A DNA stretch of 47,636 nucleotides from Pseudomonadota bacterium (GTDB lineage: Bacteria > Desulfobacterota > Desulfobacteria > Desulfobacterales > RPRI01): positions 1 to 47,636 of the forward strand of contig JAHIFE010000190.1 in NCBI GenBank assembly GCA_018901125.1, in the 5' to 3' direction. This document shows positions 2,994 through 38,465 of this stretch, piece after piece. Position numbers and translations under genes: made by a program. Position 1 is the stretch's first letter. Every line of letters starts with the position of its first letter. The notes under the pieces were generated by a model. It was not told where the DNA came from. It saw nothing but the letters and a program-made list of their open reading frames with translations, and searched no databases.

Positions 2994-4742
2994 TTATTCT
3001 GGCAGTTGCTTTATAATATTATAAAGCTTCATTTTTCTCCACAGCGTACTGCGGTCCATTTTTAAAGCAGTTGCTGCTTGCGAGCGGTTCCAGTTATTAC
3101 TTTGCAGAGCCTTCAAAATTATCTCTTTCTCATTTATTCCGGCGGAAGATTTCTTATTATCCGGTATCGCAATAAAATCGGGAACTGAAGATTTGAGGCG
3201 TTTGAGCATATAATCCGGCAGATGATGCAATTCTATTTTTTCTGTCTGGCTTATAATCAGAGCATGTTCAATAATGTTTTCCATTTCTCTTACATTGCCC
3301 GGGTAATCATAGTTAAGAAGAGCTTCCATCGCATTTTCCGAAATATCTTTTATTTGATGCAGGCTTGGTTCAAAATGTTTTCTCATGATGTGGCGGATAA
3401 GAAGCGGAATATCGGCTTTTCTGTCTTTAAGATAGGGGAGTTCAATCTGCAAAACATTTAGCCGGTAGTAGAGATCTTCACGGAATAATTGTTTATCAAC
3501 CAGATTTTTAAGTCCGCGATTGCTTGCCGATAGAATACGGACATCCACACTAACAGGACGTCTGCTCCCCAGCGGATAAAAGTTTCTGTCTTCTATAACA
3601 TGCAGCAGTTTAGCCTGAAGAGAAAGCGGAAGATCTCCTATCTCATCGAGCAGAATAGTCCCGCCGGAAGCTTCCTGAAACCTTCCGGGCTTGTCGCGGT
3701 CTGCACCGGTAAATGCGCCCTTTGTATAGCCAAACATTTCCGATTCAAGAAGGTTTTCGGGAAGAGCTGCGCAATTTACTTTAACAAAAGGCTTGCCGGC
3801 TCTGTTGCTTTCCGAATGTATGACTTTTGCCAGAAGATCTTTTCCTGTTCCGGTAGGCCCTTCGATAAGAACCGTAGAGCTGGTTCCGGCAACTACACGG
3901 GTAATCTCAAATATCTTTTGCATGGCCGGATCTTTGCCTATCATATCGTGAAAAGTATATCGTTCAGTGACAGCCTTGTTAAGATTATATACTACTGTAA
4001 GGTCGTAAAAGGTTGAAAGTCCTCCTACAATAGCTCCCTTTTCATTTCTGAGAGCCATATAACTTGCGCGCAGCGGTATGATATCGCCGCTTTTTGTTTT
4101 CATACGGCCTTTATGGTTGCTGCGTGTGCTGCCGTTTTCTATGGAATCTTTGAGCATTTCAAGATCGTTTTCTCCCACGCCTTCAAATAAAGTCGAACAT
4201 GGTTTTCCAAGAATCTGATTCCTGGCATATCCTGAAATAGTCTCGGCTGTATTATTGAAAAAAGTGATATGCCCGCCCCGGTTTACCGTAAAAATACCTA
4301 TATCAAGATTTTCGAGGATCATTTTAAGACTTCTTTCTTCAAAATGAACCCGGTTAATCAGATCCGTAATAGGAAAATGATCCTGCAAAATAGTCAAACA
4401 ACCTACCAGATTCTGTGAAGAATCATATATTGGTGTTGCAAGTCGTGTAACCAGCCTGTGCGGGGTTTCCTCGACTTTAACGGCTGAATCATCATCCCAG
4501 GCCTTGCCACTTTTAAAAAGACATTTTATCATACAGGGAACACCGCAGAAAACCTCCCGGCAATCCTGATTTGTCGTCTCGGCTTCTTTAAGTCCCATAA
4601 GCGCCTGTGCAGTAAGGTTCATAGACGAAACTTTGCGGTGAATATCTACTGTGAAAGCTCCGATATTCAATTCATCAAATAATTCCAGCAACTGATCGCT
4701 TTTAATATGTTTACCGTTTTTAATTTTTGTTTTTGAAGACAT
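2994..4742 (-). CDS. PAS-domain sigma-54-dependent transcriptional activator
   Basis: A 582-residue enhancer-binding protein with two PAS domains (about 15-120 and 135-250), an AAA+ sigma-54 interaction domain and a C-terminal Fis-type helix-turn-helix. The AAA+ part shows Walker A GPTGTGKD (about 295-302), the sigma-54 contact loop GAFTGA (about 342), GGTILLDEIGDLP as Walker B, and YPGNVREMENIIEHA. The HTH is NWNRSQAATALKMDRSTLW. It should activate transcription from -24/-12 promoters using ATP. The first PAS carries a cysteine cluster (CREVFCGVPCMIKC), seen in many activators of this type and possibly redox- or metal-sensitive. There is no receiver domain, so the signal probably comes through PAS. 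It starts 2 bp after the stop of the receiver-kinase gene, so the two are one operon. Confidence 0.95.
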   Translation of the reverse strand: MSSKTKIKNGKHIKSDQLLELFDELNIGAFTVDIHRKVSSMNLTAQALMGLKEAETTNQDCREVFCGVPCMIKCLFKSGKAWDDDSAVKVEETPHRLVTRLATPIYDSSQNLVGCLTILQDHFPITDLINRVHFEERSLKMILENLDIGIFTVNRGGHITFFNNTAETISGYARNQILGKPCSTLFEGVGENDLEMLKDSIENGSTRSNHKGRMKTKSGDIIPLRASYMALRNEKGAIVGGLSTFYDLTVVYNLNKAVTERYTFHDMIGKDPAMQKIFEITRVVAGTSSTVLIEGPTGTGKDLLAKVIHSESNRAGKPFVKVNCAALPENLLESEMFGYTKGAFTGADRDKPGRFQEASGGTILLDEIGDLPLSLQAKLLHVIEDRNFYPLGSRRPVSVDVRILSASNRGLKNLVDKQLFREDLYYRLNVLQIELPYLKDRKADIPLLIRHIMRKHFEPSLHQIKDISENAMEALLNYDYPGNVREMENIIEHALIISQTEKIELHHLPDYMLKRLKSSVPDFIAIPDNKKSSAGINEKEIILKALQSNNWNRSQAATALKMDRSTLWRKMKLYNIIKQLPE

Positions 4743-4744
4743 TT

Positions 4745-5863
4745 TTACTTTCCGGAAAATTTATTTTCTACAGGAAGACGAAGTATAAAGACCGAACCTT
4801 TGCCGGGCCGGCTTTTTGCCTCAAGACTTCCCTTATGCCGTTCCATTATTCCATAAACTGTTGAGAGGCCGAGACCGATGCCATATCCATCCTTTTTGGT
4901 TGTAAAAAACGGCTCATAAATATGATTAAGATCTTTTTCTGAGATCCCAAGCCCGGAATCTTTTACACTTATTGTCACAAAGCCTTTAACCGACTCATTT
5001 TCGGCAGTTAGCTCAAGAGTTCCGCCATCCGGCATTGCATCTACCGCATTGAATATAAGATTGATGACACACTGCTGCAATTGATTAAAATCACCTTTTA
5101 TTTCAGGTAAAACCCGGCTTATATTTAATTTGAATTCAATTTTGCTAAGCTCCATTTTGTGGCGGCTTAATAGCACACACCGGTCTAAAAGACATTTCAA
5201 ATCAATTGTTGTAAAAACCGGTTCGGACTTGCGTGAAAATGTTAATAGACCGGAAACTATCTGGGTGCAACGGCTGATTTCACTTTCAATAAGTTCAAGT
5301 TGATTTATAAACTTTTTCCTGCTGTCTTCCGTCAACATACCTTTTTCCATTATACGGAGCATCAGCTTTACATAGTTTAAAACACCGGAAAGAGGGTTAT
5401 TTATTTCATGAGCCACGCTTGCCGCAAGCCGTCCAAGCGACATCATCTTATCCTGGTGAAGAATGAGTTTTAATTGCTTTCTTGCCGTAAAACGCTCTTT
5501 AGCCCGGGTCAGAGCCATGAAAAATGCTTCGTGGCTTATCGGTTTTGTGATGAAATCGGAAGCATCAAGCTGAAGTGCCCGTATTGCTATATCCATCTCC
5601 CCAAATGCGGTCGCCACAATAATTTCAATATCCGGGATATTTTTCTTAAGAGTTTCAAGTACCTTAAGACCGTCCATTCCGGGCATTCGGATATCCGTTA
5701 TCACAATCTGCGGCAGTATCTTATAGCATAAATCCACTCCAGCAATGCCATCGGAAGCAGTTTGAGTGTTGTACCCGGAATCCTGTAACATCATAGCCAT
5801 GACATCCCGGATATCTTCTTCGTCATCTATAACAACAACAGTCCAGGAATTATTATCCGACAT
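4745..5863 (-). CDS. Receiver-histidine kinase protein (REC-HisKA-HATPase)
   Basis: This 372-residue protein has an N-terminal receiver (acidic pair D13/D14, phospho-acceptor D57 in VITDIRMPG, K107). An H-box kinase core follows (RLAASVAHEINNPLSG, H152) with a HATPase domain (N-box NLIFNAVDAMPDGG, then DSGLGISEKDLNHIYEPFF and [12 protein letters not shown]). There is no transmembrane segment, so it acts in the cytoplasm and probably takes phosphate or signal input through its own receiver. The receiver-before-kinase order is the reverse of the usual hybrid kinase. It is the first gene of a two-gene operon with the sigma-54 activator and diverges from the receiver gene at 6436. Confidence 0.93.
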   Translation of the reverse strand: MSDNNSWTVVVIDDEEDIRDVMAMMLQDSGYNTQTASDGIAGVDLCYKILPQIVITDIRMPGMDGLKVLETLKKNIPDIEIIVATAFGEMDIAIRALQLDASDFITKPISHEAFFMALTRAKERFTARKQLKLILHQDKMMSLGRLAASVAHEINNPLSGVLNYVKLMLRIMEKGMLTEDSRKKFINQLELIESEISRCTQIVSGLLTFSRKSEPVFTTIDLKCLLDRCVLLSRHKMELSKIEFKLNISRVLPEIKGDFNQLQQCVINLIFNAVDAMPDGGTLELTAENESVKGFVTISVKDSGLGISEKDLNHIYEPFFTTKKDGYGIGLGLSTVYGIMERHKGSLEAKSRPGKGSVFILRLPVENKFSGK

Positions 5864-6828: not shown

Positions 6829-8295
6829 ATGATTGATTATACTATTCTTCTGATTAATGAAGGTGAGGATATCTATAAAGTACTTAGAATGTCACTTGGC
6901 AATACCGGCTATAAGTTTGTGTTTGCCGAAAACATGGAAAACGGTTTTGGCCTTTTCAGTAAAAATAAACCTCATGTTGTGATTGCTGATATAAAAATGT
7001 CTGACACAAAAGACGTAGAATTTATAGGTATGATGAAAAAGCAGGCTCCGGATGTTGAATTTTTGATTATTATAGAGCATGGAGATGTGCAGTCGGCTTT
7101 GGCAGACCTTAAAAATACTGCCTCTAACTTTTTAATCAAACCTGTAAATACGGAATTGCTGATTATTGCTATAAAAAGAGCAGTAGAATTGGTTAGGTTG
7201 CGCGAGAATCTTAAATTTTACAATGACAATGAAATAATGTGCGATGTTTTGATTAATCAGATGATTCATGAAGAAGTGATAAAGATTGCGCCTAACTACC
7301 GGATTCAGGATATAAATAATGCCATGCTGAATAAATTGGGAATCAAACGGGAAGATGCCATAGGAAAGTTCTGCTATGAAATCACCCATCATCGGAATAT
7401 CCCATGTTCCGGTGATGAACACCCTTGTCCGCTTGTTGAATCGATCGCAAACAGAAAATCATCTCAGTCAACTCATATTCACCTGGATAAGGAAAGCAAT
7501 GAAATATATTGTTTAATTTCCTGCTATCCGCTTATTGAAAATGAAAAGGTTACAGGTGTAATTGAATTGTCAAGAGATGTTACACGCGATGTTAATATGC
7601 AGAAATCAATGCTGCAACAGGACAAGCTTGCTTCCATAGGCAGGCTTGCAGCAGGTGTTGCGCATGAAATCAACAACCCGCTCACAACCATTTTGACAAC
7701 AGCTATGCTTATTCAGGAAGATCTTGAAAAGGACAATCCCATTTATCAGGAACTTGATATTGTTTCCAGTGAGACTTTACGATGTCGTAAAATTGTTACT
7801 AGTCTTTTAAATTTTGCCCGTCAATCCAAACCCGAGAAAAAACAATATGATATCTGCGAGATTATGGAAGAGTGTGCTTTACTGACCAGAAAACAGGCTG
7901 CTTTTAAAAATATTACCATTAATTTTACTTGCGTCGATTCAATCCCGAAACTGTTTTTTGACAAAGGGCAAATTGAGCAGGCAGTAATAAATTTGATATT
8001 AAACGCTACTGATGCAGTTGATCCAGGCGGCAGCATAACTCTGTCGGTTTCGTTCAATCCCAAAAAAGATCAGGTTATAATAAAGGTTGGCGATACAGGT
8101 AAAGGCATCCCTTTTGATTTGATAGATAAAATATTTGATCCGTTTTTCTCCACAAAAGATGATGGCACCGGCCTAGGTTTATCTATCACCAGTGGTATTA
8201 TTGAGCAGCATGGCGGAGCAATTGATGTAAGCAGTAAACCGGGATATGGAACCACTTTTACCATAGTACTTCCGGCAGGTTTAAAGGATAAATAA
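6829..8295 (+). CDS. Receiver-PAS-histidine kinase with degenerate receiver
   Basis: This 488-residue cytoplasmic kinase has an N-terminal receiver-like domain (1-125), a PAS domain (about 140-255) and a HisKA/HATPase core (H279 in RLAAGVAHEINNPL; N-box NLILNATDAVDPGG; DTGKGIPFDLIDKIFDPFF; GTGLGLSITSGI). In the receiver, the usual Asp pair is N10/E11, although D54 and K104 remain, so phosphorylation may be weakened. The PAS domain has Cys182, Cys193 and Cys200 in a CYEITHHRNIPCSGDEHPC pattern, which suggests metal or redox sensing (inference). The stop and the next gene's start share a base (TAATG), so translation of the cognate sigma-54 regulator is coupled. Confidence 0.92.
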   Translation: MIDYTILLINEGEDIYKVLRMSLGNTGYKFVFAENMENGFGLFSKNKPHVVIADIKMSDTKDVEFIGMMKKQAPDVEFLIIIEHGDVQSALADLKNTASNFLIKPVNTELLIIAIKRAVELVRLRENLKFYNDNEIMCDVLINQMIHEEVIKIAPNYRIQDINNAMLNKLGIKREDAIGKFCYEITHHRNIPCSGDEHPCPLVESIANRKSSQSTHIHLDKESNEIYCLISCYPLIENEKVTGVIELSRDVTRDVNMQKSMLQQDKLASIGRLAAGVAHEINNPLTTILTTAMLIQEDLEKDNPIYQELDIVSSETLRCRKIVTSLLNFARQSKPEKKQYDICEIMEECALLTRKQAAFKNITINFTCVDSIPKLFFDKGQIEQAVINLILNATDAVDPGGSITLSVSFNPKKDQVIIKVGDTGKGIPFDLIDKIFDPFFSTKDDGTGLGLSITSGIIEQHGGAIDVSSKPGYGTTFTIVLPAGLKDK

Positions 8296-9734
8296 TGGCG
8301 GATCAACTTCCAAGGGTTTTGATTGTTGATGATGAAGTAAATATCGGCAATGCCTGCTTAAAAATTCTGGCAAAAAATGATCTTGAAGTCCATTACGTCC
8401 AAAATGGATACGATGCGCTGGCTATGATGAAAGCCATTCCTTTTGATGTGGTTATAACTGATCTTAAAATGAGCCGTATGGGAGGAATGGAAGTTTTAAG
8501 TAGAATTAAGGATAGATATCCGAAAACAAAAGTTATTGTCATAACCGGATATGCATCAATTTCATCGGCTGTTGAGGTTATGAAGATAGGTGCTTTTGAC
8601 TACCTGCCCAAACCTTTTACTCCTGTTGAGCTTCGTTCGGTAGTGCAGCAGGCTCTATCTTCCGGGCCTTCACATACGGAACAACCCGCCACTGAATCCG
8701 GCAGAAACATCAAAATACTTTCCCATCAGCTTGTAGGAAAAAGTCGCAAAATCCGGCAGGTAGTTTCCATGATCCAGAAAGTTGCTCCGACAGACTCCAC
8801 GGTTCTGATTTACGGTCAAAGTGGTACAGGAAAAGAGCTTGTTGCCCGAGCAGTCCATGCAAACAGCAACCGGAAGGATAAAGTATTTTTTGCAGTGGAT
8901 TGCGGGACATTGTCGGACAACCTTCTATCAAGTGAGTTGTTTGGACATGTGCGTGGAGCCTTTACAGGAGCTTATCAGGATAAAGACGGAATTTTTAAGC
9001 GCGCAAATAAAGGTACCGTGTTCTTAGATGAAATCGGCAACATCAGCTATGAAATTCAAGGTAAGCTTTTACGGTTTCTTGAAAACAGAGAGTTTATTCC
9101 GGTTGGCGGGGCAGAAGTGCAAAAGGTAGATCTGCGCTTGATTTTTGCTACTAATCAGGATCTTGCCAAAATGGTTGAAACCGGAAAATTCCGCAAAGAT
9201 TTTTACTACCGGATTATGGTATATCCTATAAACACACCTCCGTTACGGGATATTGTTTCCGATTTGCCTGAAATTGCAGAACGCTTTTTGAAGCTATTTA
9301 GCAAACAAATGAACAAGTCCATTAATGCTATTGCTCCTGAAGCATTGCAGCGGCTCATATCATATGACTGGCCCGGAAATGTCCGCCAACTGAAAAACGT
9401 AATAGAGAGAGCGGTAATTCTTAGTGAAGGAGAAATTCTTGAATCTATTCATTTTCCTGAAGTAGAACTTGCTGCCGATGTTAATGAACCGGAATCTGTG
9501 ATCATAAATCCTGAAAACCTGCTGGCTGTAACACCTGTAACCAATGAAGAATTAAAGCAAAAGAAACAGGAACTCAGGCAACAGGTTTCTCAGCAGCTTG
9601 AGAAAAATTTTATTTTAAATGCGCTTCTTCAACACAACTGGAATGTTACACTGGCAGCGGAAAAAGTCGGTATTCAGCGTACAAATTTTCAGGCCCTTAT
9701 GAAAAGACATGGTATTCGCAGGCCGCCGAAATAA
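8295..9734 (+). CDS. NtrC-family sigma-54-dependent response regulator
   Basis: This 479-residue regulator has a receiver (D12/D13, phospho-acceptor D56 in VVITDLKMS, K in YLPKPFTP), an AAA+ domain (Walker A GQSGTGKE near residue 173; GAFTGA near 221; GTVFLDEIGNI; YDWPGNVRQLKNVIERA) and a C-terminal Fis-type helix-turn-helix (NWNVTLAAEKVGIQRTNFQA). When phosphorylated, most likely by the kinase encoded just upstream, it should drive sigma-54 transcription. The clearest -24/-12 promoter in the window lies about 300 bp downstream of its stop, in front of the double-receiver gene, and is an obvious candidate target. Confidence 0.95.
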   Translation: MADQLPRVLIVDDEVNIGNACLKILAKNDLEVHYVQNGYDALAMMKAIPFDVVITDLKMSRMGGMEVLSRIKDRYPKTKVIVITGYASISSAVEVMKIGAFDYLPKPFTPVELRSVVQQALSSGPSHTEQPATESGRNIKILSHQLVGKSRKIRQVVSMIQKVAPTDSTVLIYGQSGTGKELVARAVHANSNRKDKVFFAVDCGTLSDNLLSSELFGHVRGAFTGAYQDKDGIFKRANKGTVFLDEIGNISYEIQGKLLRFLENREFIPVGGAEVQKVDLRLIFATNQDLAKMVETGKFRKDFYYRIMVYPINTPPLRDIVSDLPEIAERFLKLFSKQMNKSINAIAPEALQRLISYDWPGNVRQLKNVIERAVILSEGEILESIHFPEVELAADVNEPESVIINPENLLAVTPVTNEELKQKKQELRQQVSQQLEKNFILNALLQHNWNVTLAAEKVGIQRTNFQALMKRHGIRRPPK

Positions 9735-9781: not shown

Positions 9782-10036
9782 AAGAGATAGCTCAGAAGTT
9801 TATGAGTTGATGAGCAGAATAGGGAAAACCTGCCGTAAATTTTCCACATGTTTTAATACACTGTATATTTTTTTTATACATATTGTGTCATAGTAAGTAC
9901 ATGTAAGATCAAGCAAAAATCCTTTCTTTGTTTCATGCATATCGTATAATTATCTTGTACACATTTTAAGATGATTCTTAATGGCCTTATTTTATAACTA
10001 ACTGTATTAATAAATAATAAATTGCTATATAGTTTT

Positions 10037-10052
10037 TGGCACATATTCTGCT
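10037..10052 (+). promoter_or_regulatory. Sigma-54 (-24/-12) promoter
   Basis: TGGCACATATTCTGCT matches the sigma-54 consensus TGGCAC-N5-TTGCW at all six -24 positions and four of five -12 positions, with the GG and GC pairs at exactly the right spacing. The predicted start is near 10063, leaving a leader of about 67 bp to the ATG at 10130. Two sigma-54 activators are encoded nearby. Confidence 0.75.
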
Positions 10053-10129: not shown

Positions 10130-11791
10130 ATGGAACCAACAGCAAGAATTATGGTTGTTGATGACGAAAATGGCATCTGTCAGAATGTGGTAAAAATTTT
10201 ATCCAAAAATAACTATAAGGTGTCATGCGCGTTAAGCGCAAAAGAAGCCCTTGAAAAAATGTCTGAAGAATCCTATTCGCTTATCATTTCAGATCTTGTG
10301 ATGCCGGAAATGAATGGCTTGGAGTTATTGAAAAGGGTAAAAAAAGATTATCCGGAAATGAAATCGCTGATGATGACAGCTTATGCGTCAACCGATACTG
10401 CTATGAAAGCTATCCGGCTGGGTGCTCTTGACTATCTGCCCAAGCCCTTTACTCCTGATGAATTGAGAAGTACGGTTTCCCATGCCTTAAAAGGTGATCT
10501 GCCCAAGGTTCAGATACCTGCGGAAGAAGTTGAAACAATAGATGTAATTGATTTTGACATTCCCTTTGAAGCAGAAGAAGTGGCAAAATATACAGGTGAT
10601 GAATATGTAAGAAGTCTTGGGCCTTCGGATATGCCTGTTTACGAGATAAAGCCTGTTACAACACTTGAACATTATTGCTTAGTTGGAGATATGGTGTGCG
10701 AGATTTTCAAGAAACTCGGGGCAACCTGTAAAGCAGGTGTAAAAACAACCGAATGCCCTCAGAAAAAAGCCAAGGCTTCATCAGCTAAGACTAAAAAAAC
10801 GGATATATCCAAACTCGTTGGTGTTGATATGCCTTTTAACTATGACGAAGTGGTGTCCATAACCGGTCCTGAGTATTTAGCTAACCTTCACCATGAAGGG
10901 CTCTCTTTTGTGCCCTATGAAACATTGAAGAAAAATTATGAAGCTTCAGGCAGAGGTATGCAAAACATTGACGTTGATATGCCGTTTAACCGAATGGAAG
11001 TAGAGAAGATAACAGGCAAAGAATATGCTGATATCCTTAGCCGTTCGGATGTACCTGTTGTTGAGATAAAGTCTGATCAGCCACTTGAAAATTATTGCCT
11101 TCTTGGTGAAATGGTCTGTGATATCTTCAAAAAGCTGGGAAATACCTGCAAGGCCGGGGTTAAATCCAGTCTTTGTCCCCAGAAGAAAAAGGCCAAAAAG
11201 GTAAGTGGAGATGCGGTTCCGCAACAGGACATTAAAAAACTTATAGGGATTGATATGCCGTTTGACTTTGACGAAGTCGCAGAAGCCGCAGGCATTGAAT
11301 ATGCGATGAACCTTCAGACGGACGGAACTTCAATGGTTTACTATGAACAGCTGAAACAAAACGTTGCCGCTCTTTCCGGAAAAAGGGAAAAGACAGATCG
11401 TATCAAACAAATAGATGCTGATTTATCTAAAACCGTTCTTATCATTGATGATGAAATCGCCGTAAATAACAATATGCGTAAAATCCTGGCTAAAAAAGGC
11501 TATGAGATTGATCAGGCTTCGGACAAAAAACAGGCTCTTGAAAAAATCGGCTCAAATCAGTATGGACTAGTTTTACTGGATCTTAGAATACCGGGTGTTG
11601 AAGGGCTTGAGCTTTTAAAGGCTGTGCGGGCTCATCTGCCTGAAACAAAAGTAATAATCGTTACCGGTTATGCCAGCATTGAAACTGCTGTAGAAGCCGC
11701 CAGATTCGGCGCCGTTGACTATATTGCCAAACCTTTTACTCCTGCCGAACTCAGAAATGCAACTGAAAGAGCATTGCGCATTGCAGCATAA
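10130..11791 (+). CDS. Double-receiver protein with tandem Cys-rich repeat domain
   Basis: This 553-residue protein has a receiver at each end (about 1-125, with VVDDE, SDLVMPEMNG and YLPKPFTP; and about 432-553, with IIDDE, LDLRIPGVEG and YIAKPFTP). Between them lie two tandem units of about 140 residues. Each unit holds an A part, (V)D(I/M)PF…EV…TG.EY followed by a YC…VC…TC…CPQKK cluster, and a B part, VDMPF/IDMPF…EYA/L. The four cysteines recur with identical spacing, C-x6-C-x9-C-x8-C, at 183/190/200/209 and 323/330/340/349. I do not recognise this repeat. The invariant cysteines suggest metal or Fe-S binding or disulfide switching. There is no DNA-binding or catalytic domain. It is monocistronic, with a sigma-54 promoter before it and a hairpin after it. 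Confidence 0.92.
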   Translation: MEPTARIMVVDDENGICQNVVKILSKNNYKVSCALSAKEALEKMSEESYSLIISDLVMPEMNGLELLKRVKKDYPEMKSLMMTAYASTDTAMKAIRLGALDYLPKPFTPDELRSTVSHALKGDLPKVQIPAEEVETIDVIDFDIPFEAEEVAKYTGDEYVRSLGPSDMPVYEIKPVTTLEHYCLVGDMVCEIFKKLGATCKAGVKTTECPQKKAKASSAKTKKTDISKLVGVDMPFNYDEVVSITGPEYLANLHHEGLSFVPYETLKKNYEASGRGMQNIDVDMPFNRMEVEKITGKEYADILSRSDVPVVEIKSDQPLENYCLLGEMVCDIFKKLGNTCKAGVKSSLCPQKKKAKKVSGDAVPQQDIKKLIGIDMPFDFDEVAEAAGIEYAMNLQTDGTSMVYYEQLKQNVAALSGKREKTDRIKQIDADLSKTVLIIDDEIAVNNNMRKILAKKGYEIDQASDKKQALEKIGSNQYGLVLLDLRIPGVEGLELLKAVRAHLPETKVIIVTGYASIETAVEAARFGAVDYIAKPFTPAELRNATERALRIAA

Positions 11792-11795
11792 TTCT

Positions 11796-11831
11796 TTAAG
11801 AAGGCCCCTGTGGCACCAGGGGCCTTCTTAA
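11796..11831 (+). terminator. Strong hairpin terminator after the double-receiver gene
   Basis: A perfect 15-bp stem (ttaagaaggcccctg and its complement) with a 6-base loop begins 4 bp after the stop codon. No long T run follows on the + strand, so it may act as a stabilising or weak terminator. Confidence 0.7.
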
Positions 11832-12150
11832 AATAGCTTTCTGTCTCCCATAGACCGGATGAACTTATTATAGCCTTGTGTTTCTAAGGCTTAAAACCGC
11901 CCTTTTTTTATATCCTGTTGGTATAACATCAACCAGTTAACGATTCCCTGCGATTGTAAACGTCTTAGCAACTCCAAAAATAGCTGTCAGAGCCGCTTAA
12001 ACTTATTTAAATATAGAATATTATTTTATAAAATCCTAAATCTTCTTGACAAATTATTAATAACTAAAGAGAATAATTATATAGGTTATACTCTTTTTTT
12101 AATTCAAGCGATCAAAAAGCTATTTTGAATGGTGGACGGGGGAATATTCA
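11832..12150. other. Intergenic region upstream of the membrane hybrid kinase
   Basis: About 320 bp of AT-rich DNA with no convincing gene. It contains a possible sigma-70 promoter (12046-12074), and a GGACGGGGGA ribosome-site region lies just before the ATG at 12151. Confidence 0.45.
12046..12074 (+). promoter_or_regulatory. Possible sigma-70 promoter
   Basis: A perfect -35 TTGACA (12046-12051) is followed after 17 bp by GAGAAT (12069-12074), which matches four of six -10 positions. It is about 75 bp upstream of the hybrid kinase start. The surrounding DNA is very AT-rich, so chance matches are likely. Confidence 0.4.
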
Positions 12151-28082: not shown

Positions 28083-28718
28083 CTATATCCAAAGCGAAAT
28101 TACAGATATAAACACCGAATAAACTACTTCCCCGGCTTGAAATGGTGCGCCATTTTGAACGGAAATATCCATATGGTTGGCCACAATATCGGCAACCGGC
28201 ACTTCGTCTGCATGGTGTTCATGTTGCTTTAAAAAGGAGCGCAAACCTCCTATACCGTTCCATGCCAGGATATCTTGTATCAGCGTGGTTGAAATAATCG
28301 GCGGATGTCTCCGCCGGTTTATAAATGTTGGGTAGAGTATTTTCTTTTTATAATTCTTCCATGCATTCAGTAAGTCCAATAAGCTTTGACGTCTTACCAG
28401 CGGAATATCAATCGGCAAAACAAAAAACGCTTCCTTCGGTTTTGCCAGACTTTGAATTCCGGCCTTTATTGAAGAGAACATACCACTCTCATAATGCGGG
28501 TTTTCGATTGCTTCGGCGCCTGTTGCTTTAATGAGAGCAACTATCTCCTCAGTTCTATGCCCGATGACGACTCGAATATCGCAAATCCCTGCTTGCATGA
28601 AAAGATCTATCGTATGTTCCAATACGCTCTTTTCACCCATGGGCAATAGCGGCTTAAATTTTCCCATTCATGAAGAAAATCCTGCCGCCAGAATAATAGC
28701 CGATATGTTTGCGTACAT
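28083..28718 (-). pseudogene. MobA/MocA-like molybdopterin nucleotidyltransferase, interrupted by TGA
   Basis: From the ATG at 28718 the frame reads MYANISAIILAAGFSS, then TGA (28668-28670), then MGKFKPLLPMG and on to 28083. The family signature is LAAGxSxRMGxxK, so the TGA has replaced the conserved Arg codon, most simply CGA to TGA. The rest is well kept: VLEHTIDLFMQAGI, VVIGHRTEEI, ENPHYESGMFSSIKAG, VLPIDIPLV and NRRRHPPIIS, typical of CTP:molybdopterin cytidylyltransferase-like proteins. Translation from the ATG just after the stop would give 194 residues without the nucleotide-binding loop. It begins 12 bp after an mvhD-type gene and belongs to the operon with a molybdopterin formate dehydrogenase, which fits a cofactor-maturation role. 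Confidence 0.8.
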
Positions 28719-28730
28719 AATATATGTCTG

Positions 28731-29501
28731 TTAGTTATTATTTGCGGCATACAACGGCGAACTGTGCCTTATTTCTTTGAGAATCAGATGGTCCTTTTTC
28801 CGCAACGCATAGACCATGCTCATTATGTAAGGCGGCGGAAGTTCCAGCTTATGGGCTATTTCCTTCACAGATAACGCCTCCTGTCTTAACAGCAGCAGAA
28901 TTTCCTGCGCGGTGATTTCTTCCTGAATAAAGCCGTCCAGCATCCTGCCGATCTCATGCCCGGTAAATACTTCGCCGTATCGATTACCGTCACGACGGAA
29001 TTCTGTCTGCTTGGCAGTCACCCAGCGCAGTTTTTCCATGGTTACCGCACTTAAAGCTGCTTCCAGTTTCCGTTTTAAACCGTCAACGCCTTTTTCCGCG
29101 TCACTTGCCAGGGGACCCAATTCACGAATCTGATTCGTAAAATTATTTATGACTTCGGCGAAACGCGCGCCTTCGGCTGCGGATACCCATTCCAGGATGA
29201 GACGATTTGTGTTGATTTTTAAATGCTTCAATATCCGCCTGACCAGATTTACCATGTTTACTGCTTCCCGGTTTCCAGATATATAATGGCAGTCAGCCGG
29301 ATGGCATCCGCCTACCCATATGCCATCGCATCCTTTTAAAAAAGCCCTTACGACAAACTCAGGATCGACCCTGCCCGAACACATCACCCGCACCACGCGA
29401 ATATTGGGTAAATACTGAATACGTGATACACCCGCAAGGTCGCCGCCGGCATAGGCGCACCAATTGCACAAAATACCAAGAATTTTCGGTTCAAAACTCA
29501 T
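28731..29501 (-). CDS. MvhD-type iron-sulfur subunit with C-terminal winged-helix-like domain
   Basis: Residues 1-135 of this 256-residue protein form an MvhD (hydrogenase delta/iron-sulfur) domain with its cysteines: CNWCAYAGGDLAGVSRIQY, MCSGRVDP and GGCHPADCHYISGN. MvhD carries a [2Fe-2S] cluster that passes electrons between a hydrogenase or formate dehydrogenase and HdrA. The remaining 120 residues are not part of MvhD: a helical segment (LRWVTAKQ) leads to a helix-turn-helix-like region (LSVKEIAHKLELPPPYIMSM). A second protein of the same build is encoded at 44223. The extra domain may regulate transcription or be a protein-binding winged helix. The gene starts 15 bp after the HdrA stop. 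Confidence 0.9.
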   Translation of the reverse strand: MSFEPKILGILCNWCAYAGGDLAGVSRIQYLPNIRVVRVMCSGRVDPEFVVRAFLKGCDGIWVGGCHPADCHYISGNREAVNMVNLVRRILKHLKINTNRLILEWVSAAEGARFAEVINNFTNQIRELGPLASDAEKGVDGLKRKLEAALSAVTMEKLRWVTAKQTEFRRDGNRYGEVFTGHEIGRMLDGFIQEEITAQEILLLLRQEALSVKEIAHKLELPPPYIMSMVYALRKKDHLILKEIRHSSPLYAANNN

Positions 29502-29516
29502 CTTGCCATCCTCTTC

Positions 29517-32500
29517 TTACCAGTTCGCCGCGTATGCATCGATCTGTGCGTTTATCTGCTCTCTTGTGAATCGTCCCATGGTAATCGCCATTCTGGGGCA
29601 TCGCGCCGCACACACTCCGCATCCCTTGCAGGAAGCCGTTATTGTATGCGCCTTGAGATCCGTACCGGTTTCTTCTTCCACCTTGATCGAACCATAAGGG
29701 CACAGGTATTCGCAAATGCCGCAGCCAAAACATTTTTCCTTATCCACACAACTCACAATCGGTTCGGCCATTACCACTCCTTTTGCCAGAGGGATTGCAG
29801 CGCGGGCGGCAGCTGACAGCGCCTGGCTGATGGACTCGTCAATCGTTTTGGGGGAATGTGCCAGCCCGCAAACAAAAATGCCGTCTGTGGCAAAATCCAC
29901 CGGTCTTAATTTTGCATGGGCTTCCAAAAAGAATCCTTCCGCATTTAAAGGAACTTTTAACAATTGGGAGATGGTTTCATTTTCGCCGGGAACAACAGCG
30001 GCGCTGAGGGCCAGCAAAGACGGCCTGATAAGTATATTTTCACCGATAACCGGATCAAAAACAACTGCCTGAAGTTCGCCTGATTCTTCGGTGATCAAGG
30101 GCTTATGCATATCATCATAACGAATAAAAACAACACCGGCATTTCTGGCCTCTCTATAAAAATCTTCATTAAACCCATAAGTCCGGATATCCTTATAAAA
30201 AATATATATATTCGCCAATGGATTCAGTTGCTTTATTTTTAGTGCGTTTTTTATAGCTGCCCCGCAACAGATCTTACTGCAATATGGCCTTTCCGGAGTC
30301 CGGGACCCCACACATTGAATCATTAAAACATTTTTAAAGTCAGACTGATGCAATGACCCTGTGGCAATAGCTTCACCCAGTTTTTGCTGCGTAAATACTT
30401 TTTCATGTTTTCCGTAAAGGTACTCATCCGGCTGTAATTCCATAGCGCCGGTGGCGATAATAATAACCCCGTGGGAGATCTGGCTGGTTTTTTGCTCTGA
30501 AACAATTATAGTATCAAAATTGCCCACATATCCTTTCACCTGCTTGACTTTGGCATCAGCGCATACGGTGATCAGGGAATGGTTTAAAACCTTATCTTTA
30601 ATTTCTGCGAGCAGATTCTGAGGATTATTTTTATTCAATGTGAAAAAAAGGTGCTTAAGATTTCCGCCCAATTCTTTTTCTTTTTCCAGTAAAACACATT
30701 CAAATCCCTGATTCGCCAGTGCCAGAGCTGCGGTCATACCGGATAACCCGCCGCCGATAACCAAGCCCCGCCGTTCAACCGGTATAATCTCTTCCTTCAA
30801 CGGCGTTAACAGGCGCGCTTTGGCAACCGCCATTCTGACAAGGTCCTTTGATTTTTCTGTGGCTGCTTCAGGCGCTTTGGCATGTACCCACGTACAGTAG
30901 TCTCTGATATTGGCCATTTCATAGAGACAGCGGTTCAGACCGGCCTCACGAATGGTTTCCTGAAAAAGCGGCTCATGTGTGCGCGGTGTGCAGGCAGCCA
31001 CAACCACCCGATTGAGGCTATGTTCTTTTATGATTTCAATAATTTTTTCCTGGCTGTCGCGCGAGCAAGCATACATACTCTGCTGGGCAAAAACCACATT
31101 ATCTAAGCCGGCAGCATATTCCCTGATTTGGGAAACATCGGCTACCCCGGCAATATTTACACCGCAATGACAAACAAAAACGCCAATCCTGGGATCTTCG
31201 CCTGTCACATCTCTTTCAGGTACATGTTCTTTCTCCTCCACCAATGTTCCCCGGACATCGGATAGCACCCCGGAAGCCAATGCCGCCGAACCACTGGCCT
31301 GCATCACACTTTCGGGGATATCTTTCGGCGACTGAAAAGCGCCGGCAACAAAAATACCGTCTCTGCTTGTTTGTGTCGGCATAAATTCATGGGTTTTGCA
31401 AAAACCAAACTGATTGAGTTTAATACTCGCTGCCTGCGCCAGTTCTTGCGCTGTTTTAGTCGGCTCCAGTCCGACCGACAGCACCACCAGATCAAACCGA
31501 TCACTGTGATGGCTTCCATCCTCGGCGGCATAATTTAAAATCAGATCTTTTGTTTGGGGGTCCTGACAGACTGACGATATCCGGCTTCTCACAAAATGAA
31601 TGCCGAACTCTTTTTTCCCTCTTTCAAAAAAGCTTTCAAACCCTTTCCCCTGGGTTCGAATATCCATGAAGAAAATCGTTATGTCCAATTCAGGATCATG
31701 CTCTTTAGCAATAATCGATTCTTTAATTGCATAAGTACAACAAACAGAAGAGCAGTATGAATTGGATGAAAGATCCCTGCTGCCCACACACTGAATGAAG
31801 GCAAGCTTTTTGGGGTGTTTTCCGTCCGACATGCGTACAATATGGCCCTGAAACGGACCGGATGCATTCTGAATTCTTTCAAATTCGATGCTTGTTATGA
31901 CATTGGCATATTCACCATACCCATACTCTGTTTTTCTTCCGGCATTAAATTCATCCAATCCCGGCGTAAGGATCACAGCGCCTACTTCCAGTTCAATGCG
32001 CTCTTCCTTCTGATTTAAATTTATGGCCTTAAGCTTACATGCCTGCTCACATTGACGGCATTCATTTTTAAGGATATACAAACAGTGCAAAGGATCGATG
32101 AGATATGAAGACGGCACTGCCTGTGGAAAAGGGATATGGAGACACTTCACCTGAGCCAAACCTTCATTGAAAGTATCGGATATATTAACCGGGCAGTAAT
32201 CCACACAATTGCCGCATGCGTTGCATAGTTCTTCATCAACATAACGGGGTCTCTTGAGAATATTGACTTTAAAATTTCCAGCAGTGCCATTAACAGACTC
32301 TATGCTGGCATTGGCGATAATTTTAATGCTGCTGTGCCGTTCGGCCTCAACTAGCTTGGGAGATAGAATGCACATGGAGCAGTCCAATGTGGGAAATGTC
32401 TTTTCCAATTGTCCCATGGTTCCTCCGATAGAAGGAGAGTATTCGATCAGATATACAAGGTACCCCTGCTCGGCCAAATCAAGGGAAGCCTGGATTCCGG

Positions 32501-32552
32501 CGATACCTCCTCCCACAACCATCACAGCACCGATTTTTTTGCTGTTCTTCAT
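29517..32552 (-). CDS. hdrA: HdrA-like FAD/iron-sulfur electron-transfer protein
   Basis: This 1011-residue protein has the full HdrA layout. It starts with an FAD-binding GGGIAG near residue 14 and the family block LEKTFPTLDCSMCILSPKLV. An Fe-S site CNACGNCVDYCPV and a cysteine set CRQCEQACK follow, then CVGSRD…CSSVCCTYAIK, the CHCG and CSRDSQEKI segments, AACTPRTHEPLFQETI, a second nucleotide-binding domain (GLVIGGGLSGMTAALALA) and a C-terminal pair of [4Fe-4S] motifs (CFGCGICEYLCPYG, CKGCGVCAARCPR). HdrA is the flavin subunit where electron bifurcation takes place in methanogens. No HdrB or HdrC is seen, so its partners here are probably the formate dehydrogenase upstream and the MvhD downstream. 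Confidence 0.94.
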   Translation of the reverse strand: MKNSKKIGAVMVVGGGIAGIQASLDLAEQGYLVYLIEYSPSIGGTMGQLEKTFPTLDCSMCILSPKLVEAERHSSIKIIANASIESVNGTAGNFKVNILKRPRYVDEELCNACGNCVDYCPVNISDTFNEGLAQVKCLHIPFPQAVPSSYLIDPLHCLYILKNECRQCEQACKLKAINLNQKEERIELEVGAVILTPGLDEFNAGRKTEYGYGEYANVITSIEFERIQNASGPFQGHIVRMSDGKHPKKLAFIQCVGSRDLSSNSYCSSVCCTYAIKESIIAKEHDPELDITIFFMDIRTQGKGFESFFERGKKEFGIHFVRSRISSVCQDPQTKDLILNYAAEDGSHHSDRFDLVVLSVGLEPTKTAQELAQAASIKLNQFGFCKTHEFMPTQTSRDGIFVAGAFQSPKDIPESVMQASGSAALASGVLSDVRGTLVEEKEHVPERDVTGEDPRIGVFVCHCGVNIAGVADVSQIREYAAGLDNVVFAQQSMYACSRDSQEKIIEIIKEHSLNRVVVAACTPRTHEPLFQETIREAGLNRCLYEMANIRDYCTWVHAKAPEAATEKSKDLVRMAVAKARLLTPLKEEIIPVERRGLVIGGGLSGMTAALALANQGFECVLLEKEKELGGNLKHLFFTLNKNNPQNLLAEIKDKVLNHSLITVCADAKVKQVKGYVGNFDTIIVSEQKTSQISHGVIIIATGAMELQPDEYLYGKHEKVFTQQKLGEAIATGSLHQSDFKNVLMIQCVGSRTPERPYCSKICCGAAIKNALKIKQLNPLANIYIFYKDIRTYGFNEDFYREARNAGVVFIRYDDMHKPLITEESGELQAVVFDPVIGENILIRPSLLALSAAVVPGENETISQLLKVPLNAEGFFLEAHAKLRPVDFATDGIFVCGLAHSPKTIDESISQALSAAARAAIPLAKGVVMAEPIVSCVDKEKCFGCGICEYLCPYGSIKVEEETGTDLKAHTITASCKGCGVCAARCPRMAITMGRFTREQINAQIDAYAANW

Positions 32553-32593
32553 TGTCTTTCCTTTAATGTGTAATAAGTGATGCCATTAAATTT

Positions 32594-35500
32594 TCAACTT
32601 TTCTCAACAGCTACGGCACAGACTTTGTACTCCGGTATCTTTGATACAGGATCAAGAGCAGCATTTGTCAGTTTGTTTGCAGCAGACTGTGCAAAATGGA
32701 ATGGGATAAAAACCGTTCCATCGACAGCAGTTGTCGATATTTTTATTGTTGCAGTAATATCCCCTCTTCTTGACACAATTTTTGCCAATGTTCCGTCTTC
32801 AACGCCAAACTTCTTTGCATCGGAAGATGAAATTTCAACAAAATTTTCCGGAGCCCTTTGATTTATTCCATCCGATTTCATTGTCATAGTACCGGTATGG
32901 TATTGATGAATTAGGCGGCCAGTCGTGAGATAAAGAGGATATTCGTTATCGGTCTGTTCTGCCGGAGGAATATATTCAATTGCATGGAAGACACCCTTGC
33001 CTATCGGAAAAGTCTGCGTATGCAAAATAGGCGTGCCCGGATGATCTATGCTCGTACAGGGCCAATGAACGCCCACCTGGTCTATCCGTTCATAATTTAT
33101 TCCGGAATAGGAAGGAGTTACCTGGGAAATCTCCTCCATTATGGCTTCGCTGCTTTCATATGCCATTGGGCATCCCATACGGTTTGCAATTTCGCAGATG
33201 ATTTTCCAGTCTTCTTGTGCTTGCCCGGGCGGATCAACTGCTTTTCGCACCCGCTGAACTCTGCGCTCAGTGTTTGTAAATGTTCCTTCCTTTTCGGCAA
33301 AACAGGCGGAAGGAAGAACGACATCGGCAAGCTTTGCAGTGTCTGTCATAAAAATATCCTGCACAACCAGAAAATCAAGATTCTTTATGCACTTTTCGGC
33401 ATGATTGATATCAGGATCGGAAACGAGAGGGTTTTCACCAATAATATAAAGCGCTCTTAAGCTTTTATCGTGCGCTTTTGGCATCATTTCAGTAGCCTTT
33501 AAACCGGGTTTGTCTGGAAGTCCTGAAACACCCCAGGCTTGTTCCATCTTTTCTCTTACGGCAGGGTCAATTACTTTTTGATAGCCGGAGAAGACATCGG
33601 GGAGCCCTCCCATATCGCATGCGCCCTGAACGTTATTCTGACCGCGCAGAGGATTTACCCCTCCTCCTCTGATTCCAAGATTTCCGCAAAGCATGGCAAG
33701 GTTTGCCAAAGATTTCACGTTGTCTGTTCCGGTTGTGTGTTGAGTAATGCCCATGCAGTAAACAATGGCTCCTGCTTTTGCTCCGGCATACAGTCTTGCT
33801 GCATCAATAAGGCTTTGCGATGGAATACCTGTTATGGATTCAACATATTCGGGTGTGTATTTTTTGACAGCCTTTGTTAATTCTTCAAAGTTGGTTGTAC
33901 GGTTTTCAACAAAACTTTTATCGAAAAGTTCTTCCTTTATAATAACATGCATCATCCCGTTAATCCAGGCAACATCGGTTCCAAGATTCTGACGAAGCCA
34001 GTTTCTTGAAAAATATGTCATATTGATGCGTCTTGGATCAACAACAATCAATTTTGTTCCTTTAAATTTTATTGCTCTTTTAATGTTAGAGGATATTACA
34101 GGATGGTTTTCGGTAATATTTGAGCCTGTGAGCAAGATTACATCCGCTTCCTCGATATCTCCTATGGTATTTGTCATCGCTCCGCTTCCGAATGCTGCGG
34201 CCAAGCCGGCTACTGTAGAAGCATGGCAGAGACGGGCGCAATGATCTACATTGTTGGTTTTAAATACCGCCCTTGCAAGTTTCTGGAACAGATAGTTTTC
34301 TTCATTTGTAACTCTTGCAGAAGTAAGCGCACCTATTGTATCTGGTCCGTATTCATCTCTTACTGAACTAAGCTGTCGGGCTACAAGATCAAGAGCTTCT
34401 TCCCAGCTTGCTTGCCTGAAGCTACCGTCATCCTGCTTTATCATGGGATAACGCAACCGTTCAGGACTATGAATAAAATCATAGGCAAACCGTCCTTTCA
34501 CACAAAGATGCCCGAAATTAGGCGCAACTCCGGAAACGCCTTCAACATTGACTACCTCACCACCTGATACTCCAAGATATATCTGGCATCCCACACCACA
34601 GTATGTGCATGTAGTCCTGATCTTTTTAAGCTCAAACGGACCGGGTTTGCCTTTTATCTTCTCCTGTAAAGCGCCTGTGGGACAGTTTCCTGCACACAGT
34701 CCACAGTCCACACACTTATCATTAATATTCGGCGCATACTGGGGAGGACCAATGCGGTTTTCACTGGAAACTTCATCGACTTTTATGGCATACTGAATCT
34801 GATAGTTATCGCATCCCACGGCACACCTGCGGCATACGATGCATTTGTTCGGATCTACGGTTATAAAAGGGTGAGAGTTTTCTATTTTATATTTAGGACT
34901 TTTCCAGAAAGTCAGTTTGCTTGCATCAACATTATAGATTGTGGCATATTTTCTAAGCAGGCAATCAAAACTATCAAGACAACCGCAGGAAAGGCATCTT
35001 TCGGCTTCCGCTTTGGCCTGAGACTCAGTCAATACAAGTTCCGCCTCTTCAAAGCTCTTTACTCTTTGCTCAACGGAAAGAAGCGGTGTTGAATGACGCG
35101 GTCGGCTTATAATATTTTCAAAATTTACCGGATCGACTTCTTTTAATTTCCCTTTTGTTATATTAAAAGGTTTTGCATCCTTTATAACGACTCCATCGGT
35201 CAGATAACTATGAATAGACAAGGCCGCCTCACGTCCGTCAGCACTTGCCTGAATCACAGTTCTTGGGCCTCTTAAAAGATCGCCGCCTAAAAACAGATAA
35301 GGAAGACAGGATTGGAGAGTGTTTGAATCTGTTTCGGGAATTCCCTTTTTAGTAAAAGCAATATCTTTAAGCTCAGAATCGTTCTTCAAAAAAGCCATAT
35401 CGGAAAACTGCCCGATGGAAACAATAGCCTGATCCGCCTCAATAATTGTTTCGGAACCCTTAATGGGAACCGGACTAGGACGGCCGCTGCTGTCAGCAGC

Positions 35501-36718: not shown

Positions 36719-36731
36719 ATATTACTCCGCT

Positions 36732-37439
36732 TTATTTAATGAAGCCTGTGACATAAATAACAATTTCAGATTTTGCCGGATTATCTGTCTTAAGATGAAT
36801 ACTGCCCCGGTAAGTTTCTGCCTTTTCTATCAGGTTCTTTGCCGTCAGCAAATAATTGTCCGCTTCTTTCTCCAGTGTAAATATAATTTTATTTTCAAGG
36901 TTGTCCGCGTATGATGAAACTATATTGAAGGGGTACTTTTTTAAGGGTGTAATAATGATTTGGGATTGAATTATACTGCCTGCTACGCCCTTTAAGATTA
37001 TATTTTTAGGATCAATCGATCCAAATGCCTCAACTTCTCCTTTGAGGTATAAATTTAATTGCTTATTTTTCGGATCATTGGTGTAAACCGCTATGGTCTT
37101 TAAAAACTTGCTTCCTGCATAGCTAGTTGTGTTACCATTTATGGATATTTTCCCCTCGGTGCCAGGAGGTATTTGCTTTGTATAATTGGCTGTTGTACAT
37201 CCGCAACTTGTTTTAACTTTTTCAATGAGCAGAGGTGCATTGCCTGCATTTTTTATAATAAAATCATGGGTAACGGCAGTTCCTTCGATCACCGTATCGA
37301 ATCTGAATACTTCTTCTTCCAAAACTGCTACCGGTGAGAAAGAGGCTATATCAGCAGCCTGTATTTTCTCCGCACGGGCAGAAAAAGTCATCGCAAGGCA
37401 CAGTACAAGATATAGGCCAAAAAATGTTTTTGCCTTCAT
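36732..37439 (-). CDS. Exported DUF1573 protein
   Basis: I chose the ATG at 37439 because AAGGGAAA lies just upstream; a TTG five codons earlier is the alternative. The 235-residue product has a signal peptide (MKAKTFFGLYLVLCLAMTFS, cleavage after ARA) and a DUF1573 domain, an Ig-like fold of the HYDIN/ASPM type: FRFDTVIEGTAVTHDFIIKN, APLLIEKVKTSCGCTTANY, IYTNDP-like AVYTNDPKNKQ. The SCGCT motif is the family hallmark. The function of DUF1573 proteins is not established. It sits 13 bp ahead of the formate dehydrogenase fusion and after the carrier gene; whether it serves that complex cannot be told from sequence. Confidence 0.88.
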   Translation of the reverse strand: MKAKTFFGLYLVLCLAMTFSARAEKIQAADIASFSPVAVLEEEVFRFDTVIEGTAVTHDFIIKNAGNAPLLIEKVKTSCGCTTANYTKQIPPGTEGKISINGNTTSYAGSKFLKTIAVYTNDPKNKQLNLYLKGEVEAFGSIDPKNIILKGVAGSIIQSQIIITPLKKYPFNIVSSYADNLENKIIFTLEKEADNYLLTAKNLIEKAETYRGSIHLKTDNPAKSEIVIYVTGFIK

Positions 37440-37482
37440 TATATTTCCCTTCAAATGTCACATCCGCAATCTTTACCACCGA

Positions 37483-37794
37483 CTAACCGCACGATCCGCC
37501 GGACCCGCAACTCGAACATCCGCTGTCAAATTTAAGATTAGAAGTAACAATAAAACCTTTTGATGCATAATCCACATTAATGGGCTGAGCCTGTTTCATA
37601 AGATCTCTGTCAATCAGATATTCGATTCCATCGACTTTAAAGGTTGAATCATTATCCCTTTTTTCGTCAAGGCTCATTACCATTTGTGAACCGCAACATC
37701 CGCTTTGGTTAAGAAAGATCCGGATAGGTTGTATTTCCTTATCCTGGAAAAAGGCCTTAATCTCTTTTTGGGCTTTTTCTGTAACTGTAAACAT
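37483..37794 (-). CDS. A-type Fe-S carrier-like (IscA/HesB family) protein
   Basis: This 103-residue protein has the HesB/IscA-type fold signature (FTVTEKAQKEIKAFF, IRIFLNQSGCCGSQMVMSLD, VDGIEYLIDRDLMKQAQPI). The usual CGC end is replaced by a glycine- and cysteine-rich tail (SGCSSCGSGGSCG), and the first Cys site is a CC pair (33-34). A-type proteins carry and hand over Fe-S clusters, which suits a locus packed with [4Fe-4S] enzymes. The altered Cys pattern could instead bind another metal. An AGGAGAAATAC ribosome site precedes the ATG. A truncated near-identical copy lies at 26424-26597. Confidence 0.85.
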   Translation of the reverse strand: MFTVTEKAQKEIKAFFQDKEIQPIRIFLNQSGCCGSQMVMSLDEKRDNDSTFKVDGIEYLIDRDLMKQAQPINVDYASKGFIVTSNLKFDSGCSSCGSGGSCG

Positions 37795-37812
37795 GTATTT
37801 CTCCTTTATATA

Positions 37813-37945: not shown

Positions 37946-37955
37946 CTTAAATATT

Positions 37956-38405: not shown

Positions 38406-38440
38406 AATATTTCTCCTTAATTATGATATCTATATTTAAA

Positions 38441-38465
38441 CTCCCTCCCCATTAATGGGGGAGGG
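38441..38465. repeat. Short palindrome between hdrA fragment and mvhD
   Basis: ccctcccc and ggggaggg pair around a 7-base AT-rich loop, and are followed by more G-rich sequence. It may be a transcription-attenuating hairpin or a genome-wide G-rich repeat; no T run follows. Confidence 0.5.

Follow-up and report, generated by a model that had tools for sequence, protein, structure and literature searches.

Two receivers without a classical output domain are known from FrzZ of Myxococcus xanthus, which acts by protein interaction and for which we know of no sigma-54 promoter. The protein described here, encoded within a stretch of 47,636 nucleotides (the window, meaning the whole DNA analysed), shares the two receivers with FrzZ, which however has no cysteine unit and belongs to a chemosensory rather than an NtrC-linked system, the two being likened by description. 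PleD (REC-REC-GGDEF) was the top Foldseek match of the full model by way of the two receivers, with a query TM-score of only 0.25-0.29; the double-receiver protein gives no GGDEF match and carries its receivers at both ends, whereas those of PleD are adjacent. The archaeal receiver-linked HalOD2 and TackOD1 are described as lineage-specific cysteine-rich output domains predicted to bind Zn or metal (PMC5847659). These use CxxC (and HXXC) motifs, whereas the unit reported here is of the form C-x6-C-x9-C-x8-C, lies between two receivers and occurs in Desulfobacterales. In RitR of streptococci, redox sensing resides in a scaffold evolved from response regulators (PMC5965902); in the double-receiver protein, by contrast, the four cysteines belong to an inserted domain of their own, with both receivers intact. 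The sites of Desulfovibrio vulgaris sigma-54 regulators are mostly palindromic, with inverted repeats of 4-6 bp separated by a gap of 3-8 bp, and some of these regulators map to a single target locus; the target in our case is a double-receiver protein, and none such is named in the portion of that study available to us (PMC3333781).

Our best reading is that the double-receiver protein represents a new, previously undescribed type of response regulator containing a four-cysteine domain, and a prior description of it was not found in full-text searches of open-licence papers. By all sequence criteria tested the protein is a response regulator, the output part of which is without match in the searched libraries. 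Within a response regulator, this defines a domain that is undescribed, nearly specific to one order and strictly invariant in its cysteines. A single copy of the gene was found in the draft genome of the organism. The features are collected in Table 1. The probable terminator listed there is absent from the output of the terminator scan, which returned one other site, within the gene, and no excess over shuffles.

Table 1. Features of the window and, where a locus label (L) precedes the position, of related loci.
Feature	Position	Strand	Basis or remark
PAS-type sigma-54 activator, second divergent pair	2994-4742	-	
Receiver-kinase, second divergent pair	4745-5863	-	
Histidine kinase: N-terminal receiver, Cys-rich PAS (CYEITHHRNIPCSGDEHPCP), HisKA, HATPase	6829..8295	+	Pfam
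NtrC-type sigma-54 activator (REC-AAA-Fis HTH)	8295..9734	+	Pfam
Enhancer palindrome TGTATATTTTTTTTATACA, presumed NtrC-type activator site	9862..9880	+	exact TGTATA-N7-TATACA
Sigma-54 promoter TGGCACATATTCTGCT (GG-N10-GC)	10037..10052	+	strict site
Double-receiver Cys-unit protein	10130..11791	+	ORF, ATG start, 553 aa
Receiver 1 (aa 7-121)	10148..10492	+	NCBIfam model match at 7-121
Unit 1 (aa 141-280): DxPF element A1, Cys4 segment, DxPF element B1	10550..10969	+	
Unit 1 Cys4 segment (aa 183-209)	10676-10756		
Unit 2 (aa 281-425): element A2, Cys4 segment, element B2	10970..11404	+	
Unit 2 Cys4 segment (aa 323-349)	11096-11176		
Receiver 2 (aa 436-545)	11435..11764	+	best PF00072 stretch 436-545
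Hairpin directly 3' of stop codon, probable terminator	11795..11832	+	16-bp stem, -28.4 kcal/mol, z -5.25
VhuD-like gene	28731-29501	-	within window cluster 28083-47512
HdrA2-like genes	29517-32552, 41091-44135, 45005-47512	-	within window cluster 28083-47512
MetF-like gene	38918-39931	-	within window cluster 28083-47512
B element-GcvH-like fusions	L087 797-2697; L088 5116-7240; L093 4603-6263		

The earlier note on this DNA had placed two receivers around two tandem units of about 140 aa, each with a D(I/M)PF…EV…G.EY motif twice and with identical cysteine spacing; the ORF together with the Pfam and NCBIfam matches confirms this architecture, and the coordinates, domain order, motif copies and cysteine spacing given there all proved correct. 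The D[IM]PF copies stand at residues 143, 233, 283 and 375, all four running on into EV...xG.EY, and the cysteines at 183/190/200/209 in unit 1 and 323/330/340/349 in unit 2, resulting in the pattern C-x6-C-x9-C-x8-C in both. Since units 1 and 2 are 51-52% identical and the identical spacing within one protein stems from tandem duplication, this spacing alone would mean little; it is the conservation between proteins that lifts the cysteine set above chance. All four cysteines are invariant in 35/35 units from 21 homologs, in 88/88 units of a larger alignment (90 candidates minus two cut or mis-framed, L077 and L080) and, in the whole-protein rows, in 47/47 copies of unit 1 and 35/35 of unit 2, against a mean column conservation of 0.66, and only two other cysteines occur across all 88 units. 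Further invariant positions among the 88 units are P5, F6, G46, I52, K55, K61, G63, K65, P70, P95, F96 and Y123, next to the cysteines at C43, C50, C60 and C69. These unit counts are biased, as the ORFs and units for the alignments were picked by a regular expression for the cysteine pattern; in the genome scan, the pattern of which has the third cysteine as its only cysteine, the motif was present in 54/54 scanned loci, and the relatives L089-L091 (family f41), found with a cysteine-free profile of the B half, keep four cysteines with the spacing x6, x9, x6. The supposition that the cysteines are conserved was thus borne out, no homolog read lacking them apart from GcvH-like proteins that carry the cysteine-free element only.

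Comparison by hhalign shows the A and B elements to be homologous (probability 98, P 3.1e-14, 28 columns), with neither resembling the Cys segment. The unit is better read as DxPF element - Cys4 - DxPF element, and the homology of A and B means that the protein has four copies of the DxPF...EV...xG.EY element. A phylogeny of the 88 units needs 21-25 label changes and leaves 28/85 inner branches unsupported; within it the two units of the same protein pair in L052, L046 and L074, which makes repeated duplication or homogenisation of the units likely.

The domain, which had not been recognised in the earlier note, gave no confident match to a characterised domain in Pfam, NCBIfam, PDB sequence or Foldseek searches. 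For the middle region the best Pfam hit was OAM_dimer (E 0.011, 16.5 bits against a cut-off of 25 bits), the best NCBIfam hit had E 0.026 with no curated match, and neither library returned a Zn-ribbon, ferredoxin-type or other curated domain above cut-off. Pfam searches over the 88 units (best E 0.0085, in 2 members) and over 59 B elements (best E 0.009, in 1 member) were likewise negative, and PDB sequence profiles gave best E values of 0.14 for the unit and 0.79 for the B element. With the unit model, the pLDDT of which is only 64.8, Foldseek returned 0 matches and VIA-align none among the 1 chain compared. AlphaFold2 predicts both receivers at about 80-93 pLDDT by blocks and the B element at 81-86, as two helices, a short strand-like pair and a helix, whereas the Cys segments lie mostly below 55, so that metal geometry is not seen in the models.

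The predicted fold of the B element raises the possibility of a DNA- or RNA-binding regulator, in which winged-helix-like DxPF elements and a zinc-finger Cys4 with a Lys-rich tail would form a transcription factor regulated by two receivers. The Lys-rich run following CP in the Cys segment is in line with it, and so would be HTH_91, matched in 2/59 B elements at a best E of 0.19 (HTH_49 reached 0.084 and Myb_DNA-bind_8 0.044, in 1 element each), and a weak local resemblance to one stretch of helicase-like proteins. In eight other genomes the B element gave weak matches of the latter kind (E 0.011-0.093, frames of 517-738 aa, query part 17-48), four of which were read, a further weak match in G030 being left out; those read we take, by eye, to be RecD2-type helicases, and they were rejected as local similarity. 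Both the HTH_91 and the helicase-like matches are at chance level, the structural search of the unit was empty, the elements also occur on GcvH-like proteins and no common dyad stood out upstream of the histidine kinase gene. We therefore regard nucleic acid binding as rather improbable. As there is no recognised enzymatic or DNA-binding domain, the double-receiver protein most likely acts by binding partner proteins.

Both receivers look active. PF00072 matches the protein in two stretches (whole-protein E 6.7e-62, 207 bits against a gathering score of 30.2), and in the whole-protein alignment the acidic pair and the phospho-Asp, Thr and Lys positions are present in both receivers. For receiver 1, D11, D12, D55, T83 and K105 are invariant in 47/47 aligned proteins; for receiver 2 this holds for D441, D484 and T512, whereas D440 is D in 46 and E in 1, and K534 is K in all 46 rows with a residue, with one gap. 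The phospho-Asp of both receivers is present in every aligned row (46 complete frames). Receivers 1 and 2 and the receiver of the adjacent NtrC-type activator have mutual identities of 42-44% (44% to the activator for receiver 1, 42% for receiver 2), as compared to 19-36% between receivers 1 and 2 and the four other receivers compared in the window, and over 38 loci the identities among the three have medians of 43/41/44%. Because receivers 1 and 2 are closest to the activator's receiver, a shared kinase is likely, and gene order and receiver kinship together suggest that the kinase probably phosphorylates both receivers. Cys17 (window 10178-10180), in the first helix of receiver 1 near the presumed kinase dock, is invariant as well (47/47).

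The earlier note had proposed that the conserved cysteines might couple redox or metal state to a phosphorelay. This proposal is supported in part. Phospho-control is credible, given that neither receiver has lost its acidic, Asp, Thr or Lys residues, and many relatives have redox enzymes as neighbours; a role as relay intermediate is doubtful: the Pfam tables of the double-receiver protein, the kinase and the NtrC-type activator contain no Hpt domain, and the evidence on the circuit speaks for an induced output protein.

Among loci with at least 3.5 kb upstream, the double-receiver gene is preceded by the kinase in 36/40 and by the NtrC-type activator in 38/40. A strict sigma-54 site lies at most 300 nt from the double-receiver start in 45/50 loci, compared to 3/245 other ORFs and 0/159 other upstream regions (NtrC 49, HK 40, NuoE 22, NuoF 23, HdrA fusion 21, RnfC 4). 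A looser sigma-54 score is reached in 49/50 loci vs 10.9 expected by shuffling, the scores upstream of HK, NtrC and NuoE being near the shuffled background. Upstream of the sigma-54 site an inverted-repeat search picked out the two TGTATA-N7-TATACA half-sites, in 30 and 31 of 45 promoters and in at most 2 in 20 shuffles, which were mononucleotide shuffles keeping base composition only; these figures overstate significance, since promoters of related organisms do not count as independent samples. The exact palindrome is present within 350 nt of the sigma-54 site in 29/45 promoters and the relaxed form TGTA-N11-TACA in 37/45, with 18/45 having it at positions -90 to -95 relative to the promoter; the remaining 8/45 show partial matches only, and 5/50 loci are without a strict promoter.

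The palindrome is also concentrated at this gene when larger stretches are considered. The 670,406 bases of loci hold 40 exact palindromes, the nearest downstream gene being the double-receiver gene for 32, with 4 further ones that adjoin small spurious ORFs but belong to this promoter region too. The 4.45-Mb genome of the organism contains the exact palindrome once, upstream of the double-receiver gene in the window, whereas one-mismatch palindromes (21) are at background (control 26). Twelve of 20 further carrier genomes have exact palindromes (16 sites) and 8 have none; 11 of the 16 sites, in 9 genomes, immediately precede the double-receiver gene, judging by the places of the gene matches, and 5 are elsewhere or without assigned place (G007, G052, one of the two in G088, two in G090). 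Twenty genomes without a double-receiver match contain 3 exact palindromes, and a reversed control pattern gave 3 sites in the 20 carriers and 8 in the 20 non-carriers.

Gene order, the sigma-54 site and the single exact palindrome in the genome make the double-receiver protein look like the dedicated output of the kinase-activator pair, and we consider it highly probable that this pair forms a dedicated circuit for the double-receiver gene, in which the adjacent NtrC-type protein is inferred to bind TGTATA-N7-TATACA. A two-component system apparently devoted to one more protein, itself a double receiver, would be unusual, and kinase, activator, palindrome, promoter and the apparent single target together provide a circuit ready for testing. 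An alternative is a phosphate sink or feedback device: two intact receivers akin to the activator receiver, in a protein that by the promoter evidence is made when the activator is active, could drain phosphate from the kinase and shut off the activator, the Cys units being structural. Such a device has no need for one or two units of 140 aa with invariant cysteines, and the pairing of units within proteins in the tree, suggesting duplication or homogenisation, points to a function of the units themselves, so that we judge the sink unlikely.

The preferred model, in which the double-receiver protein acts as an induced output through partners, can be outlined as follows. The PAS histidine kinase would activate the NtrC-type protein, which would bind the palindrome and with sigma-54 switch on the double-receiver gene alone, so that the double-receiver protein would be made only while the activator is on. 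The same kinase would probably phosphorylate both receivers, the Cys4 units would bind metal (Zn or Fe-S), phosphorylation of the two receivers would alter how the Cys units are presented, and the protein would act through contacts to partner proteins, its likeliest business being the electron balance (NADH/ferredoxin) at Hdr-Nuo or Rnf complexes. The whole statement, combining dedicated output, metal-binding Cys4 units and a role in electron balance, we hold to be evenly poised between right and wrong.

For the Cys4 units we lean slightly toward metal binding rather than a thiol switch. Zn and Fe-S sites usually have CxxC pairs, which are missing from C-x6-C-x9-C-x8-C, and this spacing would suit a switch in which the four cysteines form disulfides or persulfides and oxidation by oxygen or sulfur stress directly alters receiver phosphorylation. 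Consistent with it, the full model places C183 and C190, seven apart, in a single predicted helix (182-195, at low pLDDT), invariant Lys residues surround the cysteines, receiver 1 has its own invariant Cys17, and relatives have a neighbourhood of redox enzymes. A strict anaerobe's reducing cytoplasm, on the other hand, generally favours thiolate-metal over disulfide, and the invariance of four cysteines plus the G, K and CP around them exceeds what a two-cysteine switch needs, so a thiol switch seems to us an unlikely explanation.

The suggested link of the double-receiver protein to electron balance derives from gene neighbourhood. Where 3 kb or more is available downstream (36 loci), Hdr/Nuo genes occur in 25 loci, Rnf genes in 3, either kind in 27 and neither in 9; for all 54 loci the counts are 30 Hdr/Nuo, 4 Rnf and 33 either. 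A locus was scored as Hdr/Nuo either for a fragment of probable selenocysteine HdrA or for any two or more of the genes for NuoE, NuoF and the HdrA/NuoG fusion, and the 25/36 depends on accepting a 15-base block and 3 kb downstream; a stricter count (two ORF clusters, 5.5 kb downstream) gives 18/33 for Hdr/Nuo and 3/33 for Rnf. The nearest Hdr/Nuo feature lies 441-1164 bp from the double-receiver gene, on either side, in 26/30 loci. Neighbours were identified by Pfam in one example each as NuoE-like (PF01257), NuoF-like (PF01512), RnfC and an HdrA/NuoG-like protein with Fer2_4 and pyridine-nucleotide domains. In the organism's own genome the NuoE-NuoF-HdrA trio is found unlinked, at C96, and is absent beside the double-receiver gene in the window. 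NuoEFG units with HdrA have been reported in Desulfotignum (PMC4046663).

A block upstream of NuoE is invariant in 22/22 loci. Its reading as an RNA was rejected, as it is HdrA coding sequence following an in-frame UGA; it was thus not used as a regulatory site, and its nature also counts against a DNA- or RNA-binding role of the double-receiver protein. The HdrA sequence contains ATGTGA, the UGA being in frame (as translated in L060), and then the invariant CTGGTCGAGGTCGGC; together they look like a probable selenocysteine codon with its SECIS. The loci contain 42 copies, some overlapping (e.g. L028 5427, L060 9756, L102 3555) and often beside NuoE-NuoF-HdrA. The distance from the double-receiver gene to a probable SECIS downstream on the same strand is 440-1163 bp in 26 loci, the SECIS always coming right after ATGTGA; an Rfam search of five loci gave no match at the gathering threshold. 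Selenocysteine-containing HdrA is known in Deltaproteobacteria (PMC1794560).

The gaps between the double-receiver gene and the probable selenocysteine HdrA contain a strict sigma-54 site or exact palindrome in 0/26 cases, and as no strict sigma-54 site is common to the Hdr/Nuo genes and the double-receiver gene, the two are linked by neighbourhood only. On this genomic basis we find a functional link to the bifurcating or Rnf complexes rather likely. In our judgement, little is understood of how sulfate reducers control their NADH/ferredoxin balance, and the Hdr-Nuo/Rnf neighbourhood offers a concrete entry point to it.

The kinases of many relatives add to this. In place of the receiver at the N-terminus of the window kinase, which matches PF00072 (E 3.7e-12) and is degenerate by eye, its acidic pair being lost, cognate kinases such as those at L065 2937-4382 and L060 4450-5889 have a Rossmann-like domain. 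By regular expression the kinase N-terminus is Rossmann-like in 28/44 cluster members, the clusters stemming from a home-made ORF caller by which some genes were missed or shadowed (e.g. L053, L062, L069). Twenty-five of these 28 were aligned (L043, L053 and L054 being left out), of which 10, 8 and 7 match DapB_N, GFO_IDH_MocA and NAD_binding_3, respectively, with a best E of 2.6e-5, and PDB profiles gave a weak match of 0.012. These weak matches make NAD sensing a lead: the kinase in many relatives may read NAD(H) through its Rossmann-like domain. The PAS motif C-E-H-PC-HPCP is found in 29/42 kinases, one per locus. The most far-reaching version of the model, in which a metal or Fe-S protein gated by phosphorylation would dock on HdrA-NuoEF/HdrA or Rnf complexes and throttle electron bifurcation, driven by a kinase perhaps reading NAD(H), is a quite improbable proposal. 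If true, it would mean post-translational control of flavin-based electron bifurcation by a response regulator, and we know of no earlier response regulator acting on this process post-translationally.

As far as sampled, the architecture REC-(1 or 2 units)-REC appears nearly confined to Desulfobacterales. The profile searches covered the organism's own phylum and matched 21/96 genomes comprising its own and those of relatives; the occurrence across Desulfobacterota, a count suggested in the earlier note, came to 9/395 genomes, 7 of the same order including its own and 2 of one other family. A pattern scan of a species-genome collection yielded 54 loci titled as Desulfobacterales members, Deltaproteobacteria and, once, Proteobacteria. 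Complete frames were obtained from 46/54, all aligning as REC-(1 or 2 units)-REC, the other 8 being cut by contig ends; the 88 units were contributed by 52 proteins, of which 36 contain two units, 12 contain a single unit and 4 are truncated. In the relatives L021 and L094 the Cys segment is followed by two B elements.

The B element is more widespread, matching in 63/291 genomes of the order (E 1e-4), of which only part of the matches were read. Two loci from the first search, L024 and L026, do not contain the motif; they overlap the stretch L087, which encodes GcvH-like proteins that have a B element but lack the Cys4 segment. In family f21 the B element precedes, on the N-terminal side, GcvH-like proteins (PF01597, tested by Pfam in L087 only). 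Within the window, the second divergent pair (2994-5863, minus strand) faces the kinase/NtrC pair of the double-receiver system, and the minus-strand cluster at 28083-47512 includes a gene for a 1374-aa protein in which a glutamate-synthase-small-subunit-like part is fused to formate dehydrogenase alpha. One of the GcvH-like fusions bears a further Cys-rich stretch (CVWMRAG...LCDYDYDCYNCPFD); close to those of L088 and L093 are a kinase with a Rossmann start, a regulator of receiver type and a short protein, the L087 counterpart of which has, by eye, a HELGH metalloprotease-like motif.
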